Part shown: piece after piece, positions 14,843 to 25,358 of the stretch
Layout: every line of letters begins with the position of its first letter
Position numbering within the stretch: the stretch's first letter is position 1
Source of the DNA: Spirochaetales bacterium
GTDB taxonomy: Bacteria > Spirochaetota > Spirochaetia > UBA9216
NCBI GenBank assembly: GCA_016839055.1
Contig: JAEKNX010000023.1
Span: 1 to 53,819 of the forward strand
DNA: 53,819 nt
Reading direction: 5' to 3'
The notes under the pieces: generated by a model
What the model was told of the DNA's origin: nothing
Databases searched by the model: none
What the model saw: only the letters and a program-made list of their open reading frames with translations
Made by a program: the position numbers and the translations under genes

Positions 14843-15334
14843 ATGGATAAAGATGCCGAACTTACTAAGTGCAGCAAGGCAATGTCGGAATGGCTGTCGC
14901 TGTCAATGCAGATATCTTTTCGGACCCATTCGATGTTTTTTAAGGAGAGGGGCTTCTCTCATTCGCAAATCGCGACCCTTCACATGCTATCTCACCGAAA
15001 AGAATGTGCTGTAAACGACGTGAGTCATATGCAGTCCATCAGCAATCCGGCTGCAAGCCAGCTTCTGGATCAACTGGTAAAACGCGGCTTTGTTGAAAGG
15101 TATGAAAGCAATGAAGACAGAAGAATAAAGTATCATAAACTGACCGAATCCGGCATAAAAATGATGGAGGAAAGCCACTCCGCCAGCAAAGACTGGTATC
15201 AATCGCTAATAAACGATTTATCTCAAGAGGAAATGCTATTGGTGACAGATGCTCTGGACATTTTAAATAAAAAAATTCAAGTATTCAAATCCAAATCCAA
15301 ATGTAAAGATTGTCACAAAGGAGACAGAAGTTAG
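14843..15334 (+). CDS. MarR family transcriptional regulator
   Basis: A 163-residue winged-helix regulator. The DNA-binding segment runs about residues 45-105 (SHSQIATLHMLSH, NPAASQLLDQLVKRGFVERYES) and ends in the wing DRRIKYHKLTESG, typical of MarR. Flanking helices form the dimer interface. The C-terminal tail carries CKDCHKG, two cysteines and a His that could sense metal or oxidant, though this is speculative. The stop codon directly abuts the ATG of the first exporter gene, so it very likely controls the exporter operon through the palindrome at 14821-14832. Confidence 0.9.
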   Translation: MDKDAELTKCSKAMSEWLSLSMQISFRTHSMFFKERGFSHSQIATLHMLSHRKECAVNDVSHMQSISNPAASQLLDQLVKRGFVERYESNEDRRIKYHKLTESGIKMMEESHSASKDWYQSLINDLSQEEMLLVTDALDILNKKIQVFKSKSKCKDCHKGDRS

Positions 15335-17563
15335 ATGTTAAAGCTATTTAAATATTTAAAACCTTATACATTCAGCATCCTGGTTTGTACAGCCCTGCTT
15401 TTTCTACAGGCAAATATGGATCTTACCCTCCCGGATTATATGTCGAGGATAGTTAATACGGGAGTTCAGCAGAACGGTATTGACTCGGCTGTGCCCGTGG
15501 CAATAAGACAAACCGAAATGAAGAATCTCGAGCTGTTCTTCGGTGACAAGGAGAAACAGGAAATCCTGGATGCCTACACTCTTTTGGAACCCGGAACTGG
15601 TGATGCTGTGCCTCTGGAGCTGGTCTATCCTGCACTCAAGAACGAAGCCCTGTATATTTTAAGTGAAGGCGCTGAGACCGACGCGTTCGAGATTGTTTTT
15701 AGCCGGGCATTTTCCGCAGTGGCGGGAATAACCCAGATGGCGTCGGGAACCGGAAAATCCTCCGGCGGCCCGGGGATGCCTGATTTATCGATGATTCCCG
15801 AAGGATCGGACTTCTTCAGCATTCTATCTACTATGCCGGAAGAGCAGCGCAGCCAGATTCTTGCTATGATAAGCTCCAAGGTCGGGCAAATTGATGAAAT
15901 AATCCTTACCCAGGGCGCTCTACGCCTTGTTAATGCGGAATATCAGGCAATCGGAATGGATACAGGCAAAATGCAGAGCCGCTATATAATCAACATGGGC
16001 GCGATGATGCTTCTTTTTACGCTTATTTCGATACTGGCCAATATTATAGCCGGACTGCTTGCTTCACGGAGTGCAGCCGGAATGGCTCAGACTGTACGTA
16101 GTGATATTTTCAATAAGGTAGAGCATTTCAGCGGAGAGGAGTTTGACAAGTTCTCGACGGCTTCACTGATAACAAGAACCACGAATGACGTAACTCAGGT
16201 TCAGCTTGTGATTTTTATGATGCTCCGGATGGTAATCTACGCTCCGATTCTGGGAGTGGGAGGCGTCATAAGGGCTCTGGGCAAGGCCCCGTCGATGGCC
16301 TGGATTATCGGGCTGGCGGTTCTCGCCCTTCTTGGACTGATAACAATTGTCTTTATTATCGCCACTCCTAAATTTAAGAGTATTCAGAGGCTAATCGACA
16401 GGCTGAACCTTGTAACACGTGAGAACCTTTCCGGCCTCATGGTTGTGAGAGCCTTTAACAGGCAGAAGTTTGAAGAAAAGAGATTTGATAAGGCAAATAA
16501 AGATCTGACAGGCGTAAACCTCTATGTTACAAGGGTCATGGTTATTATGATGCCGGCGATGATGCTCATCATGAACCTCCTGTCGGTTGCAATCATCTGG
16601 GTTGGCGCCCATCAGGTTGCCGAGTCCAGCATGCAGGTCGGCGACATGATGGCCTTTCTTCAGTATGCAATGCAGATTGTAATGTCTTTTCTGATGCTCT
16701 CGATGATTTTTATTTTTCTCCCCCGTGCTGCTGTATCAGGGACCAGGATATCCGAAGTTCTTGAAACGGAGCCTACAATCTCTGACCCGGAAAATCCTGA
16801 GGATCTTCCCTCAAAAGTCCGCGGCAGGATCGAATTTAAAGACGTCAGTTTCACTTATCCGGGAGCCGAAGAAAATGCTCTCTCGGGCATTAACTTTATA
16901 GCCGAACCGGGAAAGACCACCGCCATCATCGGTTCTACCGGCTCAGGCAAGAGCACTATTTTAAACCTCATTCCGAGGTTTTACGATATTACCGGCGGTG
17001 TAATTTTATTGGACGGCCAGGATATCAGGAAAATCAGGCAGAAGGATCTGAGATCTCAGATAGGTTATGTACCTCAAAAGGTAACCCTGTTTTCAGGCAC
17101 TATAGAGAGTAATTTAAAATACGCCGATGAGAATGCCTCTGAGGAAACTTTAAGGCAGTCCGCGGAGATCGCCCAGGCTATGGAGTTTATAAGCTCTAAG
17201 CCTGAAGGACTCAACACTCCGATAGCCCAGGGGGGACAAAATATCTCCGGAGGCCAGAAACAGCGGCTGTCGATAGCCCGGGCCCTGGTGAAAAAAGCGC
17301 CGGTTTATATTTTTGATGACAGTTTTTCCGCCCTGGATTTTAAAACCGACGCGGCCCTACGAAAGGCGATGAAGGAAAAGACCGGAGACAGTACTTTAAT
17401 CATTGTTGCTCAGCGTGTTTCAACAATAATGAAGGCAGAGCAGATTATTGTTCTCGATGAAGGGGGAATTGTCGGCAAAGGCACTCACGGGGAACTTCTA
17501 AAGAGTTGTGAGGCTTATTCGGAAATTGCATATTCACAATTGAGCATGGAGGAGTTATCATGA
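15335..17563 (+). CDS. Heterodimeric ABC exporter subunit with degenerate ATP site
   Basis: A 742-residue type IV ABC exporter half. TM1 (about residues 12-30) is followed by an unusually long ~190-residue insertion before TM2 (near 220), then TM3-6 and the ATPase domain (about 490-735). Walker A is GSTGSGKST and the signature ISGGQKQRL is complete. After Walker B the catalytic Glu is Asp (YIFDDSFSALD) and the switch His is Gln (IIVAQRVSTI). These substitutions mark the degenerate-site partner of heterodimers such as TM287/288 and LmrCD. The partner gene overlaps by 4 bp. Likely exports drugs or lipids. Confidence 0.92.
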   Translation: MLKLFKYLKPYTFSILVCTALLFLQANMDLTLPDYMSRIVNTGVQQNGIDSAVPVAIRQTEMKNLELFFGDKEKQEILDAYTLLEPGTGDAVPLELVYPALKNEALYILSEGAETDAFEIVFSRAFSAVAGITQMASGTGKSSGGPGMPDLSMIPEGSDFFSILSTMPEEQRSQILAMISSKVGQIDEIILTQGALRLVNAEYQAIGMDTGKMQSRYIINMGAMMLLFTLISILANIIAGLLASRSAAGMAQTVRSDIFNKVEHFSGEEFDKFSTASLITRTTNDVTQVQLVIFMMLRMVIYAPILGVGGVIRALGKAPSMAWIIGLAVLALLGLITIVFIIATPKFKSIQRLIDRLNLVTRENLSGLMVVRAFNRQKFEEKRFDKANKDLTGVNLYVTRVMVIMMPAMMLIMNLLSVAIIWVGAHQVAESSMQVGDMMAFLQYAMQIVMSFLMLSMIFIFLPRAAVSGTRISEVLETEPTISDPENPEDLPSKVRGRIEFKDVSFTYPGAEENALSGINFIAEPGKTTAIIGSTGSGKSTILNLIPRFYDITGGVILLDGQDIRKIRQKDLRSQIGYVPQKVTLFSGTIESNLKYADENASEETLRQSAEIAQAMEFISSKPEGLNTPIAQGGQNISGGQKQRLSIARALVKKAPVYIFDDSFSALDFKTDAALRKAMKEKTGDSTLIIVAQRVSTIMKAEQIIVLDEGGIVGKGTHGELLKSCEAYSEIAYSQLSMEELS

Positions 17564-19440
17564 GCGACAAACAGAATTTCTCTGAAAAAGATAAACCGGC
17601 CGCAAGTCCGCAGCGGGGAAGGGGCCCCATGGGCGGCGGCCACATGGGAATGATGAAGGCTGAGAAGGCAAAGAATTTCAAGGGGACGATGAGACGCCTT
17701 CTGTCATATCTTGCCGAGTATAAACTTACGCTTTTCTTTGTTTTAATCTTCGCGATTGCCTCGACAATTTTCATGATAATCGGCCCGAAGACCCTCGGGA
17801 AGGCTACTACTGCCTTGTTCGAAGGGGTTATGGCTAAGATTGCCGGGACGGGGACGGTTGATTTTCTTTATATTGGAAAGATTATTCTTTTTGTACTTAT
17901 AATTTACGCGGGATCTTCTTTATTTTCATTCATCATGGGATGGATAATGGCAAGGGTCTCGGCGGACATAACATACCGCTTCAGGCGTGATGTTTCGCTG
18001 AAAATAAACGAGATACCCTTTAATTATTACGACAATACAACCCATGGCGAGACGCTCTCGCGAATCACAAACGATATAGATACAATAAATCAGACCCTCA
18101 GCCAGAGCCTCACTCAGATTATTACATCCATTGTCTCCATAGTCGGGGTTCTTATAATGATGTTTTCAATTGATTGGCGGATGACCCTGATTGCTCTGGC
18201 TATTCTGCCGCTTTCAATGGTACTTGTAACCTTCATCGTCAAAAAGTCTCAGAAGTACTTCAAGCAGCAGCAGGAGTTCCTGGGGCATATAAACGGACAT
18301 GTTGAGGAGATGTTTTCTGGCCACATGGTAATGAAGGCATTTAATGGGGAGCAGAAGAGTATTGATACCTTTGAGGAGAGTAACAAGACCTTATTCTCAT
18401 CAGCCTGGAAGTCACAATTTCTATCCGGAATGATGATGCCCCTGATGAGATTCGTCGGAAACCTCGGCTATGTTGCCGTAGTTATTATGGGCGGATGGCT
18501 TGTTATAAAGAGGATTATTACCATAGGAGAGGTTCAGGCCTTTATCCAATATGTTAATAATTTCACCCAGCCAATCACTCAAATTGCCAACATCAGCAAT
18601 GTCCTTCAGCGGACAGCGGCGGCGGCAGAGCGTGTCTTTGAGTTCCTGGATGTGGAAGGGGAGATAGCCGAAACAAAGACCCCTGTAAAGCTCGACTCTG
18701 TAGAGGGGTTTGTAGAGTTTAAGAATGTTCATTTCGGATACAATCCGAATGAACCGATTATAAATAATTTCTCGGCAAAGGCTAAACCCGGGCAGAAAAT
18801 AGCAATTGTCGGACCCACCGGGGCAGGAAAGACAACCATGGTGAAGCTTCTCATGAGGTTCTATGATGTGAACTCCGGAGCCATTATGGTAGATGGGCAC
18901 AACATCCAGGAATTCACCAGAGCGGATCTTCGCAGGAATTTCGGAATGGTTCTTCAGGACACCTGGCTGTACAACGGAACAATCCGCGACAATATCAGTT
19001 ATGGAAACCCTGACGCCTCAGAAGAGGAAATAATAAAGGCTGCCGAGGCGGCACACGCGGACCACTTTATAAGGACCCTCCCTGAGGGCTATGATATGGT
19101 TCTTAACGAAGAGACTTCCAATATCTCCCAGGGGCAGAGGCAGCTGCTGACAATTGCCAGGGCCATCCTGGCTGATCCGAAACTTCTTATTCTCGATGAG
19201 GCTACAAGCTCAGTAGACACGAGAACAGAGATTCTGATTCAGAAGGCAATGGATAACCTGATGTCCAGCAGGACCAGTTTTGTTATTGCCCACCGGCTTT
19301 CTACTATCAAGAATGCCGACTTGATTCTTGTAATGAACGAAGGTGACATTGTCGAACAGGGAACGCATGTGGAGCTTCTTAAAAAGGACGGCTTCTATGC
19401 CGACCTCTACAACTCTCAGTTTGAGACTGTAGCGAGCTGA
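17560..19440 (+). CDS. Heterodimeric ABC exporter subunit with canonical catalytic residues
   Basis: A 626-residue ABC exporter half with a Gly/Met-rich N-terminal extension (about residues 14-36), six membrane segments to about 350, and an ATPase domain (about 385-620). Walker A is GPTGAGKTT, Walker B ILDEATSSVD keeps the catalytic Glu, and the switch His is present (IAHRLSTI). The signature is ISQGQRQLL instead of LSGGQ. Since each ATP site pairs the Walker motifs of one subunit with the signature of the other, this variant signature completes the degenerate site of the partner. The operon ends at the terminator 19454-19497. Confidence 0.93.
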   Translation: MSDKQNFSEKDKPAASPQRGRGPMGGGHMGMMKAEKAKNFKGTMRRLLSYLAEYKLTLFFVLIFAIASTIFMIIGPKTLGKATTALFEGVMAKIAGTGTVDFLYIGKIILFVLIIYAGSSLFSFIMGWIMARVSADITYRFRRDVSLKINEIPFNYYDNTTHGETLSRITNDIDTINQTLSQSLTQIITSIVSIVGVLIMMFSIDWRMTLIALAILPLSMVLVTFIVKKSQKYFKQQQEFLGHINGHVEEMFSGHMVMKAFNGEQKSIDTFEESNKTLFSSAWKSQFLSGMMMPLMRFVGNLGYVAVVIMGGWLVIKRIITIGEVQAFIQYVNNFTQPITQIANISNVLQRTAAAAERVFEFLDVEGEIAETKTPVKLDSVEGFVEFKNVHFGYNPNEPIINNFSAKAKPGQKIAIVGPTGAGKTTMVKLLMRFYDVNSGAIMVDGHNIQEFTRADLRRNFGMVLQDTWLYNGTIRDNISYGNPDASEEEIIKAAEAAHADHFIRTLPEGYDMVLNEETSNISQGQRQLLTIARAILADPKLLILDEATSSVDTRTEILIQKAMDNLMSSRTSFVIAHRLSTIKNADLILVMNEGDIVEQGTHVELLKKDGFYADLYNSQFETVAS

Positions 19441-19453
19441 AAGTAGCTAACTC

Positions 19454-19497
19454 GCCGGCTGTACTTTGTTGTCGAAAATAGAACAGCCGGCTATTTT
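19454..19497 (+). terminator. Rho-independent terminator after the ABC exporter
   Basis: GCCGGCTGT (19454-19462) pairs with ACAGCCGGC (19483-19491) and is followed by TATTTT, 13 bp after the stop codon. Confidence 0.8.
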
Positions 19498-19583
19498 ACT
19501 ATCTCGATTTTAAAAATGCATTGCAATCAATATTCATTATCCAATATAATTGTATCAACAGAGTTTTTATAAAGGGAACAGGA

Positions 19584-20048
19584 ATGGATGTAAATTTTGA
19601 TGAGATAGATTCGAAAATTATCTGCATGCTTCAGGAAGACGGGCGCATGCCGTTTACAAAGATTGCGAAACAGCTCGATATTGCAGAATCAACGGCACGT
19701 TCACGGACTCAGCGTCTGATACGTGACGGTATTATAAAGATTGTTGCTGTAAGCGACCCCAAAATGCTTGGGTTTCAGGTATACGGCAATATAAAACTTA
19801 TTATCGATTCCAATAAAATGAACTCCATCATCGAAGATCTTAGAGAGATTAACGAGATAACTTATATTGCACTACTTACAGGTGATGCTGATATCGATGT
19901 GGATTTTATTGTCCCTGATTTGAATGATTTGGCAAAATTGATTTACGAAGATATTAATAGTATACAGGGGATTATCCAGAGCAGAACTTCCCTTATTATG
20001 CGTTATGAAAAAGATACTTATAAATGGAAAACAGTTTTGGAAGGTTGA
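19584..20048 (+). CDS. Lrp/AsnC family transcriptional regulator
   Basis: A 154-residue regulator: an N-terminal helix-turn-helix (about residues 1-55; DEIDSKIICMLQEDGRMPFTKIAKQLDIAESTARSRTQRL) and a C-terminal RAM/ligand-binding domain (about 65-145). Proteins of this family bind DNA as multimers and respond to amino acids. I chose the ATG at 19584, preceded by AGGGAACAGG; the upstream ATG at 19521 would add 21 residues not typical of the family. It lies 117 bp before an aminotransferase/symporter/dehydrogenase operon in the same direction and is its likely regulator, with direct repeats at 20095-20122 as candidate sites. Confidence 0.92.
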   Translation: MDVNFDEIDSKIICMLQEDGRMPFTKIAKQLDIAESTARSRTQRLIRDGIIKIVAVSDPKMLGFQVYGNIKLIIDSNKMNSIIEDLREINEITYIALLTGDADIDVDFIVPDLNDLAKLIYEDINSIQGIIQSRTSLIMRYEKDTYKWKTVLEG

Positions 20049-20094
20049 CTGCTTTACTGCTGATATCGTTAAAAATCAATATGAATATAAAGGA

Positions 20095-20139
20095 TACCGC
20101 GAAAAAATAATTGACATACCGCTAAACAGCCCGTAAAAT
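20095..20139 (+). promoter_or_regulatory. Promoter with 21-bp-spaced direct repeats
   Basis: TTGACA (20111-20116), 17-bp spacer, TAAAAT (20134-20139): a near-consensus promoter for the operon starting at 20165. ATACCGC occurs at 20095-20101 and 20116-20122, 21 bp apart (two helical turns) and touching the -35 box. This phasing fits a multimeric Lrp-type regulator, most simply the one encoded at 19584. Confidence 0.65.
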
Positions 20140-20164
20140 TAATAATATTTTGCAGGAGGTGAGT

Positions 20165-21559
20165 ATGTCTTTATCTATTCCGGGGCCGGAAAGCCTTAAG
20201 GTTCTGAAAAAAGGTCCTTTACTCTTCAAAGACGGCGGCCATTATGAAAAACTGGCTTCAGACGCGGCGAAAAAGGGGCAGCAGCCTCCGCCCCAGATGA
20301 TAAATGCAAAGGGTGAAGGCTCTTTTATAATAGATGCCGATGGAAACCGCATAATTGATTTCCATGCCGGGTGGGCTTCCAACCCGCTGGGGAATGCCAA
20401 CCCTGAGATTCTTGAGTCGGTCTATGCTGCCTTAAAGCAGTACGGTTTTATTTATGAACATAGTCTCCGCTACGATCTGGCAGAAGTTCTTGCCGATATT
20501 TCTCCCGGCGGCAAATTAACCAGAACAAATTTTGAAATCTCAGGAACTGAGGCTGCCGAAGCTGCGGTTACCTATGCTATCAGGCATACCGGCCGCCCCC
20601 TGATTATTACTTTTGAGGATCAGTTCCACGGTGATAGTATTGCAACCCGTATGATGGGTTCAAACCGCGGAGCGCATAGAAGAAAGGGCTTTGAGGCCTG
20701 GAGAGGCGGCGTTATAACTGTGCCCTGGCCGCATAGTTTCAGAATGCCTGCGGGCATGGGTTTCGAACAATATACCGATTATATACTTTGGTACATCGAT
20801 ACCTTTGTGTGTCAGAAGGTTGCAGATCCGGAATCAATCGCAGGTATAATTGCTGAACCGCTGCTCTCCGAGGGCGGTAACTGGATGCCACATCCTAAAT
20901 TCATGCCGGGACTGCGAAAGTTATGTGATAAATACGGATGGGTTTTTATATCGGATGAAGTTCTTTCCGGCATGGGCCGCAGCGGCAAATGGTGGGCAAT
21001 TGAGCATGATGATGTACAGCCTGATCTTGTAGTAATAGGAAAGCATTTGACCGGTGGTCTTGAACCCATTGCAGCCGTAATAGGAACCGATGAAATCCTT
21101 GCAGAAAACGACGGCCATTCCGGCAGCACTTTTGCAGGAACTCCTGCCGGCTGTGCTGCCGGGCTTAAAACTATCGAGATAATGAAACGGGACAACCTTG
21201 TGAGCCGGACGGATCAACTGGGTAAACGCTGCTTAGAGAGGATGAAAGCTTGGGAAAGGGAATTTGAGATAATCGGACAGGTTCGCGGACGCGGTTTTCT
21301 GCTCGGCGCTACTGTTATTAACAAAGATACCGGGGAGCCTGATGCAGGTGTTGCGCTTGCTGTTGTAAATGAGGCTCTGAAGCGCGGTGCCTGGCTCATA
21401 TGGGATAATGAAACGCAAATTCGGTTGTATCCGGCATTAAATATTGATGAGGATCTGCTTGAAAAGGGCCTGACAATCACTGAAGAGGCTATCAGGGCCG
21501 TTGAGAAGAATTATAGGTCAAGTGATTATCCATTCTGGACTACCGGGATTTTGTGGTAA
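20165..21559 (+). CDS. Class III aminotransferase
   Basis: A 464-residue PLP enzyme. Signature blocks are DADGNRIIDFHAGWASNPLGNANPEI near the N-terminus, NFEISGTEAAEAA (PLP phosphate site), IAGIIAEPLLSEGG, ISDEVLSGMGRSG (Asp contacting the PLP ring) and VVIGKHLTGGLEP with the Schiff-base Lys. The family includes ornithine, GABA, lysine and beta-alanine transaminases and glutamate-semialdehyde mutases; the eye cannot pick the substrate. ATG 20165 has AGGAGGT at 20154-20160. It heads an operon with a sodium symporter and a saccharopine dehydrogenase-like protein, suggesting transamination of an imported amino acid. Confidence 0.9.
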   Translation: MSLSIPGPESLKVLKKGPLLFKDGGHYEKLASDAAKKGQQPPPQMINAKGEGSFIIDADGNRIIDFHAGWASNPLGNANPEILESVYAALKQYGFIYEHSLRYDLAEVLADISPGGKLTRTNFEISGTEAAEAAVTYAIRHTGRPLIITFEDQFHGDSIATRMMGSNRGAHRRKGFEAWRGGVITVPWPHSFRMPAGMGFEQYTDYILWYIDTFVCQKVADPESIAGIIAEPLLSEGGNWMPHPKFMPGLRKLCDKYGWVFISDEVLSGMGRSGKWWAIEHDDVQPDLVVIGKHLTGGLEPIAAVIGTDEILAENDGHSGSTFAGTPAGCAAGLKTIEIMKRDNLVSRTDQLGKRCLERMKAWEREFEIIGQVRGRGFLLGATVINKDTGEPDAGVALAVVNEALKRGAWLIWDNETQIRLYPALNIDEDLLEKGLTITEEAIRAVEKNYRSSDYPFWTTGILW

Positions 21560-21630
21560 AAAGCAATTAACTATTACAGGCTGACTTGTGAATGCATCTT
21601 CTGAATTAAATTTTAAAGAAGGAGAAAATT

Positions 21631-23283
21631 ATGATGAAGGCTGAAAATGGAGGATTGATTGTTGCTTTCCTTGCACTTTACATGGTGGCAATGTTGATGG
21701 TCGGTTTCTGGGCATCCCGCAAGGTAAAAAAAACATCGGACTATATAGTTGCGGGACGAAATCTGAATCTTTTTCTTGCAACCGGGACAATGTTTGCAAC
21801 ATGGTTTGGGGCAGGAACATGTATGGGCGGTGCCGGAAATGCATACCTCTTTGGTAATCAGGGAGTAATTTTTGATCCCTGGGGCGGAGCTGTCTGTCTG
21901 CTTATCATCGGCTTAGTGTTTGCACGACTGATGAGACGAGGCAAATTTCTTACGATAGCAGATTTATTTGAGATAAGATACGGCAAAACGGTTGGAATGC
22001 TGTCTGTTATCACCTGCGCGATAAGCGAGCTAGGGTGGCTCGGAGCTCAGCTGGTAGCCTTTGGAACAATTCTGCATCTGTTCATTGGTATTCCCCTGTG
22101 GATAGGAATTGTTGTCTCTACTATAGTCGTAATAGTGTATACCTTCCTTGGCGGTATGTGGGCGGTTACCCTTACCGATGTTGTCCAGATGATAATAATA
22201 GTTGTCGGGCTGATAATCATGATTATCGTTATATCCCCGCTTGTCGGAGGACTGAAAGAAGTATTAAATAATGATCCTGCCGGAAACTGGATGGGCTTAA
22301 ATCAATGGTCATTCGGTTATACCTCGACAGCGAATGCAAGCGCCGAACTGGAGAACCAGGGCTTCATGTACTATACCGGTTATTTAGGCTGGTTCTATAT
22401 GATTGCCGCCTGGATGTCTCTGGGGTTCGGATCAATTGTAGCCCAGGATACGCAGCAGCGGCTGTTATCATCCCGAACTGAATCAGTTGCAGCCTGGTCA
22501 TCAACAATTGCCGGAATCGGCTATGCAACAATCGGAGTTCTTCCTATTCTTGCCGGAATGATTTACTTCAAGCTTAATCCGGATCTCTCGATTGATCAGG
22601 CTCTGAACAATATTCTGGTAATTATTTCCATAGATTATATGCCGGGAATCTTCACTGCAATCTTTGTAAGTGCCCTGGTTGCAGCCCTGATGTCTTCTGC
22701 GGACAGCGCCGTTCTTGCAGCTGCGTCACTTATAGGCTACAACGGCGTGAAAATGGTAAAACCGAAAGTGACAGAAGTTCAGACTCTGAGATATACAAGG
22801 ATTCTTGTTCCGATTTTAACCTGTGTGTCATTGGTTCTCGCCCTGTGGTTTCAGGTTATCTATAATCTGATGGTTGTTGCCTGGTCCATCCTGCTGGTGT
22901 CTCTTCTGGCGCCTTATGTTGCCGCCTATTTCTGGAAGAAAGCCAATACCGCAGGCGCCCTGGCTTCATTTTTCGGAGGTTTCGGAACATGGATAATTGC
23001 GTATATCGCTCATCTTCCAATAACAAAATTGGCAAATACCGATGCTGTTCCGGGTGTTCCGGGAGTGTATTGGGACTGGGCCATGTGGGATTCGCTGTAC
23101 ATTGCATCGGTATGGGGATTTCTTGGATCGGTAATTTTACTTATCGTAGTGAGCCTGGCAACCCAGAAGGTCTCAAAACCGCTGCCTATAAGAGATATTG
23201 AGGGAAATCTGCTGCCCATTAAAAACTGGTTCCTTATTCAAAGTAAGAAAAAAGGTCCTAGGCAGGAAGCAGCTGCAGAGTAA
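21631..23283 (+). CDS. Sodium:solute symporter family protein
   Basis: A 550-residue transporter with about 13 membrane segments in the SSS fold. Conserved stretches include SDYIVAGRNLNLFLATGTMFATWFG near the N-terminus, GGMWAVTLTDVVQ, and the ALMSSADSAVLAAASL block near residue 355 that helps form the Na2 site. It should import a small organic solute with Na+; SSS members carry proline, pantothenate, sugars and others. GAAGGAG precedes the ATG. Placement between the aminotransferase and the dehydrogenase makes an amino acid the best guess. Confidence 0.92.
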   Translation: MMKAENGGLIVAFLALYMVAMLMVGFWASRKVKKTSDYIVAGRNLNLFLATGTMFATWFGAGTCMGGAGNAYLFGNQGVIFDPWGGAVCLLIIGLVFARLMRRGKFLTIADLFEIRYGKTVGMLSVITCAISELGWLGAQLVAFGTILHLFIGIPLWIGIVVSTIVVIVYTFLGGMWAVTLTDVVQMIIIVVGLIIMIIVISPLVGGLKEVLNNDPAGNWMGLNQWSFGYTSTANASAELENQGFMYYTGYLGWFYMIAAWMSLGFGSIVAQDTQQRLLSSRTESVAAWSSTIAGIGYATIGVLPILAGMIYFKLNPDLSIDQALNNILVIISIDYMPGIFTAIFVSALVAALMSSADSAVLAAASLIGYNGVKMVKPKVTEVQTLRYTRILVPILTCVSLVLALWFQVIYNLMVVAWSILLVSLLAPYVAAYFWKKANTAGALASFFGGFGTWIIAYIAHLPITKLANTDAVPGVPGVYWDWAMWDSLYIASVWGFLGSVILLIVVSLATQKVSKPLPIRDIEGNLLPIKNWFLIQSKKKGPRQEAAAE

Positions 23284-23294
23284 AAGGGAATTTT

Positions 23295-24521
23295 ATGAAA
23301 AAAGTATTAGTATTAGGCGTTGGCGCGCAGGGCAGCACAATTGCAAAGCGGCTTGATGAAGAGTCAGTTGTATCACAGCTGCGCTGCGGCGATAGAGATC
23401 CGAAAGCTACCGGAGAACTTGAAAACACTTTAAAAAAGGCAAAAGGGTATCAGGTAGATGCCCGAAGCCTTCACAAGATTGTGGAGGCTGCACATGGTGT
23501 CGATCTGATAGTTAACGGACTTGCTCCGGATTTTAATATGACTGTGATGGATGCCGCCCTTGAAGTGGATTGTGATTATCAGGATATGGCCTCCGGACCG
23601 GTTAGCGATATTGGTTTTGTTGAAGCGGTTCAGCGATGTCTTGACAGATCTCCGGAGTTCGAAAAAAAGGGACTGACGGCATTAATTAATACCGGATCAG
23701 CTCCCGGCTGTGCAAATGTAGTCACCCGTGAATCCGTTGACATGATGGATGAATGTGAATCAATTGAAATACTTGTCTATGACGGGATATGGTCAAAGCA
23801 GTTTATTCCCTTCTGGTGGTCACCCAAGACAGCATTCGCAGACATGGCCGCCAAACCAATACGTTTTGAAAACGGAAAGTTTGTAAGGACTAAACCATTT
23901 GACAATCCATCCATGGAATATTTTGAAGGACTGGGCAAGAGACGAATGGTTGACCATGAACATGAAGAACCGGTGACAATGGGGCTGCTCTCAGGCAAAG
24001 TTCTCAAAAATGTAAAGAATGTAAACTTCAGATACGGCGGGCCGGCTGTAGATCTTGCTGAAAGTCTGTATAAAATGGGATTATTGTCTGAGGATTCCCT
24101 GAAAATTAATGGACAGGAAATTGTTCCAATGGATATCATCTCATTTTTGACCCCGCCGGCACCGAAATATCCGGAAGAAATCCAAACAGTACTCGATGGA
24201 GGAATGGAACTGGAAGAAGGAGCATTTGTCGTACGTGTGAGTGGTAAACGAATGGGACGTAATATTCTTATAGAAAGTTATGTTAATGCTCCAGGGCTGC
24301 TGGATTCCTTTGTCAAAGCAGGAATAACTCACGAATCATATTTCACGGGACAATCCGCATTTCTTTTTACAAAAATGCTTATCAATGACAAGATTGATAG
24401 AACAGGAGTTTTCCCGCCTGAGATGCTGGATAAGGCCGAGCGGGATTACTATTTTAAAGAAGCTTCAAAACTCGATATCACCGTTGATCAGATTATCAGA
24501 ACGCGGCTTTTTGAGAGTTGA
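23295..24521 (+). CDS. Saccharopine dehydrogenase-like oxidoreductase
   Basis: A 408-residue protein with an N-terminal Rossmann fold: VLVLGVGAQGSTIAKRL (GxGxxG) binds NAD(P), and the acidic residue of GDRDP follows strand two. DLIVNGLAPDFNMTVMDAAL and LINTGSAPGCANVVTRE are characteristic of the saccharopine/lysine dehydrogenase family. The family makes or splits a secondary amine or oxidises an amino group. It lies 11 bp after the symporter gene. Together with the aminotransferase it could degrade an omega-amino acid (such as lysine) or an opine-like compound. The exact reaction is unknown. Confidence 0.85.
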   Translation: MKKVLVLGVGAQGSTIAKRLDEESVVSQLRCGDRDPKATGELENTLKKAKGYQVDARSLHKIVEAAHGVDLIVNGLAPDFNMTVMDAALEVDCDYQDMASGPVSDIGFVEAVQRCLDRSPEFEKKGLTALINTGSAPGCANVVTRESVDMMDECESIEILVYDGIWSKQFIPFWWSPKTAFADMAAKPIRFENGKFVRTKPFDNPSMEYFEGLGKRRMVDHEHEEPVTMGLLSGKVLKNVKNVNFRYGGPAVDLAESLYKMGLLSEDSLKINGQEIVPMDIISFLTPPAPKYPEEIQTVLDGGMELEEGAFVVRVSGKRMGRNILIESYVNAPGLLDSFVKAGITHESYFTGQSAFLFTKMLINDKIDRTGVFPPEMLDKAERDYYFKEASKLDITVDQIIRTRLFES

Positions 24522-24539
24522 TATTCCGACCGGCTGAGT

Positions 24540-25358
24540 TTATTCAGTTTCGCCAGAGTAAAGCTCGGGTATCCACCGCTGTGAATCAATTGGGGGCCGG
24601 GAATAATTCTCGGCCGCCTGGCGCGGCGGAAGATTAACCTGTGCCGGGGTGAGGTCTTCATACTCGACCCGGGACAGAAGGTGCCTGATGCAGTTGAGCC
24701 TCGCGTGGCGCTTGATGTCGGCATTTACAACCCACCATGGGGCTGCTTCAATATCGGTATGAAGGAACATGGCGTCCTTGGCCCTCGAGTAATCGACCCA
24801 TTTGGAACGTGACTCGATGTCCATGGGGCTCAGCTTCCAGCGCTTGGTGGGATCATCTATTCTGGCCTGAAAGCGCTTCTCCTGCTCCTCGTCGCTCACC
24901 GAAAACCAGTATTTAATCAGCTTGATGCCGGAGCGGACCAGCATACGCTCGAACTCAGGGCAGCTCCGGAGAAACTCGCGATATTCGGCGTCGCTGCAGA
25001 AGCCCATGACATGCTCAACCCCTGCGCGGTTATACCAGGAGCGGTCGAAGAGAACCATTTCACCCGCGGCAGGAAGATGAATTACGTAGCGCTGGAAATA
25101 CCACTGGCTTTTTTCCTTGTCGGTGGGCGTTCCGAGGGCGGCAACCCGGCAGTAGCGCGGATTCAGGCTTTCTGTGATGCGCTTAATAACACCGCCCTTG
25201 CCGGCGGCGTCGCGGCCCTCAAATATGGCAACAACCTTGTAACCTTTGAGCTTCACCCATTCCTGAAGTTTGACGAGTTCAATCTGGAGATTCAGCAGCT
25301 CAGCCTCATACTCTTTTTTACCTATCTTTTTTGTTTTGTCCATATTATTTTCACTCAT
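24540..25358 (-). CDS. ppk2: Polyphosphate kinase 2
   Basis: A 272-residue single-domain PPK2, which transfers phosphate between polyphosphate and nucleotides. Walker A GRDAAGKGG and the DRSWYNRAGVE Walker B region are intact, and the lid (KRWKLSPMDIESRSKW) follows. Length fits class I or III enzymes that phosphorylate ADP/GDP. The start is ATG 25358 because the longer open frame from TTG at 25394 begins inside a perfect consensus promoter (25366-25394). The mRNA would begin within one or two bases of this ATG, so translation is probably leaderless; no Shine-Dalgarno is present. An internal ATG at 25343 is an alternative. Confidence 0.9.
   Translation of the reverse strand: MSENNMDKTKKIGKKEYEAELLNLQIELVKLQEWVKLKGYKVVAIFEGRDAAGKGGVIKRITESLNPRYCRVAALGTPTDKEKSQWYFQRYVIHLPAAGEMVLFDRSWYNRAGVEHVMGFCSDAEYREFLRSCPEFERMLVRSGIKLIKYWFSVSDEEQEKRFQARIDDPTKRWKLSPMDIESRSKWVDYSRAKDAMFLHTDIEAAPWWVVNADIKRHARLNCIRHLLSRVEYEDLTPAQVNLPPRQAAENYSRPPIDSQRWIPELYSGETE

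Follow-up and report, generated by a model that had tools for sequence, protein, structure and literature searches.

A candidate amine-catabolic operon with a carboxyspermidine-dehydrogenase-like enzyme in a Spirochaetales bacterium

Among the genes of a 53,819-nucleotide stretch of DNA from a Spirochaetales bacterium (hereafter the window; contig C30, positions 1-53819, in a genome of 5.0 Mb, 43 contigs and 96.95% completeness), four lie consecutively on the forward strand and may together serve the breakdown of a small amine. They encode an Lrp/AsnC-family regulator (19584..20048; 154 aa), a class III aminotransferase (AT; 20165..21559, with its ATG at 20165 preceded by AGGAGG), a protein of the sodium:solute symporter family (SSS/SSF; 21631..23283; 550 aa) and a carboxyspermidine-dehydrogenase-like oxidoreductase, probably NAD-linked (hereafter SDH; 23295..24521; 408 aa), with 71 bp between AT and SSS and 11 bp between SSS and SDH. 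Our preferred reading, which we hold as possible though short of probable, is an Lrp-linked catabolic operon where an NAD+ enzyme related to carboxyspermidine dehydrogenase (CASDH) cleaves a secondary amine, the AT removes a primary amino group and the SSS protein imports the substrate.

The first-pass annotation, made from the letters of the window, had listed this set of a regulator, an aminotransferase, a symporter and a saccharopine-dehydrogenase-like gene, and both its content and its positions were right. All four proteins exceed the Pfam gathering scores of their families: the regulator for the HTH_AsnC-type (PF13404; 47.8 vs 27 bits) and AsnC_trans_reg (PF01037; 43.3 vs 25) domains, the AT for Aminotran_3 (PF00202; 271.5 vs 30.5), the SSS protein for SSF (PF00474; 144.5 vs 22.8), and SDH for Sacchrp_dh_NADP (40.0 vs 25.1) and Sacchrp_dh_C (47.3 vs 31).

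From the gene content, protein families, motif conservation and neighbourhoods observed, we infer a route, and with it the direction, cofactor, substrate, transport and regulation. The SSS protein would import the compound with Na+, as expected from its family. SDH, using NAD+, would convert the C-N bond of a secondary amine into an imine, whose hydrolysis would yield an amine and an aldehyde, as in CASDH chemistry reversed, and the AT would transfer the primary amino group of the substrate or of the product to a 2-oxo acid. The aldehyde would then be oxidised by an aldehyde:ferredoxin oxidoreductase (AFOR) or an aldehyde dehydrogenase encoded elsewhere. The substrate of the window operon is likely a polyamine-like or opine-like secondary amine; across the whole SDH family, polyamines or compounds derived from them are the likeliest substrates, one case being spermidine, which would give putrescine and 3-aminopropanal. 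A bolder proposal, which we consider doubtful, is that this CASDH-related family comprises NAD+-dependent, oxygen-independent polyamine (secondary-amine) dehydrogenases that work towards cleavage and, together with a class III AT and AFOR, would make up a complete polyamine-eating route in anaerobic bacteria of several phyla, the window version having an SSS importer.

The dehydrogenase and its solved relatives

By sequence and by predicted fold, the nearest solved relative of the window SDH is CASDH. A profile of 46 family members (alignment A2, composed of the window copy and 45 of the 78 loci described below, with L131 omitted for an internal stop in its frame) reached CASDH 8deb at an E-value of 2.3e-38 and 4ina at 2.5e-36, followed by L-lysine dehydrogenase 3abi at 3.5e-15, and by saccharopine reductase 1e5l at only 0.63. 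An AlphaFold2 model of the window protein (mean pLDDT 95.3) gave fold Z scores of 42.5-44.8 with CASDH-type entries, 37.5 with lysine dehydrogenase, 28.8-31.5 with saccharopine dehydrogenase or reductase and 28.6-30.1 with homospermidine synthase.

In a study of CASDH (PMC10413350), catalysis is assigned to His228-Glu229-Glu230, together with Glu188 and the relay Ser144. As read from the alignments, these residues pair with H223-E224-E225, D183 and A140 of the window SDH. The His-Glu-Glu motif is kept throughout A2, with H223 and E225 in 46/46 sequences and position 224 occupied by Glu in 31 and by Asp in 15; the Glu188 position is Asp in all 46. H223, E225 and D183 are likewise invariant across the 14 sequences of a second alignment (A1), which were gathered by protein searches and without motif patterns. 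The same study describes the His-Glu-Glu sequence as absent from saccharopine dehydrogenase 1E5Q and from lysine-6-dehydrogenase 3ABI.

The cofactor pocket departs at two positions from that of CASDH, whose NADP selectivity is attributed in PMC10413350 to Thr36, Arg45 and Lys39 plus a water that Ser34 and Thr36 keep in place, Ser34 contacting the adenosine ribose and this bridging water, and Thr36 the 2'-phosphate. The alignments place D33 and D35 of the window SDH at these two positions, and in A2 the former is Asp in 46/46 sequences and the latter Asp in 42 and Asn in 4. This is an NAD-type pattern, by which SDH is probably NAD-linked. CASDH-type chemistry, probably with NAD, would thus probably cleave a secondary amine oxidatively. 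The first-pass suggestion that the dehydrogenase closes the pathway by a saccharopine-like or reductive step gives way, on sequence, fold and the His-Glu-Glu motif, to a CASDH-like and probably oxidative enzyme.

Two more specific identities were rejected. A saccharopine dehydrogenase is disfavoured by the poor match of 1e5l, behind both CASDH and lysine dehydrogenase, and by the lower fold Z scores. A true CASDH is disfavoured by the residues at the Ser34, Thr36 and Ser144 positions, by the carboxynorspermidine synthase model NF043000 (45.8 bits for the window SDH vs a cut-off of 800) and by nspC (carboxyspermidine decarboxylase, CASDC; TIGR01047), for which the own genome, 96.95% complete, gave 0 matches.

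Gene neighbourhoods of the family

A scan of genome contigs with the 14-sequence alignment found 199 relatives; the 80 best, at 78 loci, were kept. These come from Spirochaetota, Desulfobacterales and other Deltaproteobacteria, Myxococcales, SAR324 and Firmicutes (Syntrophomonadaceae, Clostridiales, Anaerovorax), and seven of the 78 loci belong to one Desulfobacterales metagenome-assembled genome. With four loci of the own genome added, neighbours were counted at 79 of 82 loci (L086, L093 and L099, with no SDH open reading frame (ORF) called, were omitted), many of them on short contigs. The gene classes are similarity clusters that we named; representatives of the AT, SSS, AFOR, ferredoxin-like, Lrp, MalT-like and Pot-type clusters were tested against Pfam or NCBIfam, while the Dpp, amidohydrolase, MttB and aldehyde dehydrogenase clusters were named by reading the sequences (the aldehyde dehydrogenase of L084 also matched NCBIfam models, under their cut-offs, and the amidohydrolase of L117 had no NCBIfam match at 1e-100).

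Within 6 kb of SDH, a class III AT occurs at 21 of the 79 loci and any importer at 32 (Pot-type ABC 14, Dpp-type 12, SSS 8), with AT and importer together at 14. Lrp and MalT-like regulators are each found at 12 loci, AFOR at 11, amidohydrolase-like genes at 7, MttB-like genes at 3 and aldehyde-dehydrogenase-like genes at 2. Of 25 AT genes at this distance, 22 share the strand of the SDH, and at ten loci AT and SDH lie on one strand and no more than 350 bp apart. That SDH genes of several phyla lie near class III ATs and importers supports the earlier view of an uptake and degradation route for an amine. Genes within 4 kb of SDH were also compared with those beyond 6 kb, in 16 tests with uncorrected p values and on loci that are related to each other, so that the counts are not independent trials; PotD (12 vs 0, p=0.008), MalT-like (11 vs 0, p=0.012) and SSS genes (8 vs 0, p=0.041) were enriched near SDH.

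Curated cut-offs allow some of these partners to be named, diamine enzymes among them. The neighbouring ATs of L089 (633.9), L111 (620.0) and L127 (648.9) exceed the cut-off of 612 for putrescine aminotransferase (PRK11522), and all three fall under that of a second putrescine aminotransferase model, TIGR03372; the ATs of L094 and L089, of which the NCBIfam scan covered the latter, share 93% identity. L127 has AFOR, a ferredoxin-like gene, putrescine aminotransferase, a Pot-type ABC transporter and SDH in this order, and nearby a GABA transaminase (547.4 vs a cut-off of 506.65). In L084, a single run contains a Pot-type ABC transporter, an N-carbamoylputrescine amidase (431.6 vs 410.25), an agmatine-deiminase-like gene (319.4, under the cut-off of 381.8), an AT, SDH, an aldehyde-dehydrogenase-like gene and a second AT.

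The window AT, whose best relative in the PDB is 7vno, stays below the cut-off of every NCBIfam model among the best 25 of 69, the top one being PRK05769 (319.3 vs 552). Because of this, the earlier statement that the combination matches no named pathway is supported. The exact Lrp-AT-SSS-SDH set is rare, since the window AT was found at E<=1e-95 in only 1 of the 392 Spirochaetota genomes drawn, its own, and an Lrp-AT-SDH set was seen in two further Spirochaetota genomes. One of these loci, L080, has 67% identity to the window in AT and 61% in both Lrp and SSS, the SSS gene being divergent in orientation; in the other, L087, with 58% in AT and 54% in Lrp, a Pot-type ABC transporter replaces SSS. 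SDH relatives at E<=0.001, many of them distant, are present in 41 of 98 genomes searched, the own one included. Doubt about the module had been tied to its genes rarely clustering elsewhere, which is true of the exact set and not of AT and SDH in general, a pair that recurs.

The own genome encodes three further close SDH paralogues (67%, 50% and 48% identity) and two distant ones (29% and 27%). The operon of the 67% paralogue, on contig C20, consists of a divergent MalT/BTAD-like regulator, another class III AT, SSS and SDH. Its AT resembles GntE (518.1 vs a cut-off of 525), and relatives in L101 (546.4) and L112 (564.3) pass this cut-off. AFOR and a ferredoxin-like gene lie about 4 kb from the C20 SDH, on the other strand. 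The first-pass remark that no aldehyde dehydrogenase is present fits the window locus as read, and the AFOR near the paralogous operon could be the source of the aldehyde oxidation lacking there. Several AFOR genes are indicated for the own genome, where twelve AFOR-like matches occur and seven extend over more than 470 residues of the query.

Other arrangements of the family differ from these operons. On contig C43 of the own genome (4129-9663; L049), a third SDH subfamily stands behind an amidohydrolase gene on the other strand and a two-gene set for a TPP/POR-domain oxidoreductase, a context that is unlike that of the AT operons and that recurs, with the same gene clusters, in L143. L082 and L083 carry three tandem SDH paralogues, one from each of three subfamilies of the tree, which suggests either a heteromeric complex or three related substrates. 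In the deltaproteobacterial contigs L089, L094 and L100, SDH lies beside methyltransferase genes that we named MttB-like by sequence reading, a possible link to methylated amines.

Regulatory region and adjoining genes

Between the Lrp and AT genes, a sigma-70-like promoter, TTGACA-17-TAAAAT (20111..20139, forward strand), precedes AT-SSS-SDH with 11/12 consensus matches, and it is the top of 17 promoter-like sites in 19400-24700 (shuffle mean 9.9). A second promoter-like site, TTGCAA-18-TATAAT (19521..19550, forward strand), stands before the Lrp gene with 10/12 matches; both are assigned by consensus. Two exact, forward-strand copies of ATACCGC occur at 20094..20100 and 20116..20122, the latter overlapping the end of the -35 hexamer. 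The near-consensus promoter with a repeat at its -35 had thus been correctly noticed as a promoter-like site, and the 21-bp phasing given for the repeats needs correction to 22 bp (starts at 20094 and 20116).

The exact pair at 22-bp spacing occurs once in the 5.0-Mb genome, at 20094-20122; allowing up to 2 mismatches, the pattern is matched once in the window and at least once in 17 of 100 shuffles. The 21-bp pattern ATACCGC-N14-ATACCGC was discarded, as it has no match at 20094-20122 and is found in exact form at a single place in the genome, on contig C8. With up to 3 mismatches, this pattern matches the window at 10 places, compared with 2.61 expected (0/100 shuffles had as many), an excess of which none lies at the AT promoter. 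In the two loci with orthologues, L080 and L087, the sequence between Lrp and AT contains no ATACCGC; the Lrp proteins beside the orthologous AT there are 61% and 54% identical to that of the window. Comparative sequence evidence thus lends little support to a putative binding of Lrp to ATACCGC.

A shared Lrp operator was also sought in 14 Lrp-linked regulatory regions, on either strand, and its candidate, TAGCGG, was rejected with only 4/14 regions (expected 0.78). TTGACA is found on either strand in 14/14 of these regions (expected 1.64). A CG..AAA element behind TTGACA, a pattern picked post hoc, was seen at 5/18 sites vs 42/854 control sites (p 0.0014).

Upstream of Lrp, in 14843-19440, a MarR-family gene lies directly 5' of two ABC half-transporter genes (742 and 626 aa), likely a regulated exporter with no relation to the amine operon. 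Downstream of SDH there is a convergent PPK2-family gene.

Alternative explanations and known systems

A number of observations weigh against the preferred reading. With respect to the enzyme, the relay Ser144 of CASDH is Ala140 in the window SDH and Ser in 0/46 sequences of A2. The NAD assignment is weaker for the window copy, because its position 34 is Arg, where 42/46 members have Tyr, and because the comparison covers Ser34 and Thr36 among CASDH contacts that also include, for the phosphate, Lys39 and Arg45. The conservation of the His motif in loci L067-L144 is set partly by construction, since they were drawn with two motif patterns, one of them containing HxH[ED]E. In the own genome, no PotD passed the cut-off (one match at 34.7 bits), AguB-like matches also stayed under theirs (best 329.2 vs 410.25), and the window AT scores 186.2 bits as putrescine aminotransferase, with a cut-off of 612. 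The ORFs next to the best AguB-like gene, on contig C35, look by eye like an amidohydrolase and an NhaC-like antiporter; visual inspection of the 13 listed ORFs of at least 180 aa showed no agmatine deiminase.

The neighbourhoods add further such points. In the near-vs-far control, AT itself (23/444 vs 5/216 genes, p=0.061), Lrp (10 vs 2, p=0.19), AFOR (8 vs 1, p=0.15) and DppA (p=0.15) were not significant, and general ABC ATPases showed no enrichment (18 vs 10, p=0.71). In a quick tree of SDHs with long branches meeting (the first SDH of L069 left out), contexts are clustered overall (34 changes vs a shuffled mean of 46.5, as low in 0/200), although PatA contexts (8 changes in 8 rows) and the window-type AT (3 in 3) form no clades, and no AT lies within 6 kb of the SDHs nearest to that of the window, those of L067 and L068. 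Besides, other contexts of the family contain Dpp-type transporters and amidohydrolase-like and MttB-like genes.

An unlikely alternative is the catabolism of opines or N-substituted amino acids, where SDH with NAD+ would split an N-(carboxyalkyl) amino acid into an amino acid and an oxo acid, the former being processed by the AT. The same SDH chemistry would apply, because opines are secondary amines. In its favour are the Dpp-type transporter (12/79) and amidohydrolase-like (7/79) neighbours, the agropine permease 6hly among the relatives of Pot-type binding proteins (E 8.4e-06 to the L127 protein), and the binding protein of L087, far from spermidine/putrescine binders (best 1.3e-18) and with no NCBIfam model at 1e-20. 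However, curated cut-offs, where they allow a name, identify the partners as putrescine aminotransferase, GABA transaminase and N-carbamoylputrescine amidase, and the fold closest to SDH is that of CASDH.

A direct NAD+-dependent deamination of a terminal primary amine by SDH, in the manner of L-lysine 6-dehydrogenase, would suit the Asp at position 33 and the rank of 3abi as the next solved relative by sequence (3.5e-15) and fold (Z 37.5). We judge it improbable, as SDH has the CASDH His-Glu-Glu motif, which 3ABI lacks according to PMC10413350, and the adjoining AT would perform the same job. The proximity to CASDH could in turn point to a biosynthetic enzyme that reductively joins a diamine and an aldehyde into a polyamine, yet the Asp residues at the Ser34 and Thr36 positions, the score far under the carboxynorspermidine synthase cut-off, the lack of any nspC match in the own genome and the symporter and Lrp-type regulator alongside make such a role very improbable.

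If the preferred reading is true, a CASDH-type enzyme working in reverse with NAD would give anaerobes an oxygen-free polyamine route; to our knowledge, the enzymes that cleave the secondary amines of polyamines belong to the flavin enzymes, and several use oxygen. Some genomes encode multiple members of the family, among them the own genome with four close paralogues, the window copy included, and the "saccharopine dehydrogenase" labels of the SDH group would be corrected. Within the titles and abstract openings searched, no published description of an Lrp/AT/SSS/SDH module was found.

Among known systems, CASDH (EC 1.5.1.43; PDB 8deb, 8h4z) is related to SDH over the whole length of the sequence and in fold, and shares the His-Glu-Glu motif and an acidic residue at Glu188, kept as Asp. 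SDH departs from it in its identity of about 20%, in the Asp residues at the Ser34 and Thr36 positions, in the loss of Ser144, and in its neighbours of catabolic type, with no carboxyspermidine decarboxylase found in its own genome. With saccharopine dehydrogenase and lysine degradation it has in common the two Sacchrp_dh domains and the fold superfamily, although 1e5l is hardly reached by its profile and the fold score falls below that of CASDH. The putrescine transamination route (putrescine aminotransferase, aldehyde dehydrogenase and GABA transaminase) has its genes beside SDH in L127 and partly in L089, L111 and L084, whereas the window AT is of another subfamily, and we know of no counterpart of the SDH step in that route. 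The module would be placed, from its sequences, as a variant of amine catabolism, with a putative substrate between polyamine-like and opine-like compounds.

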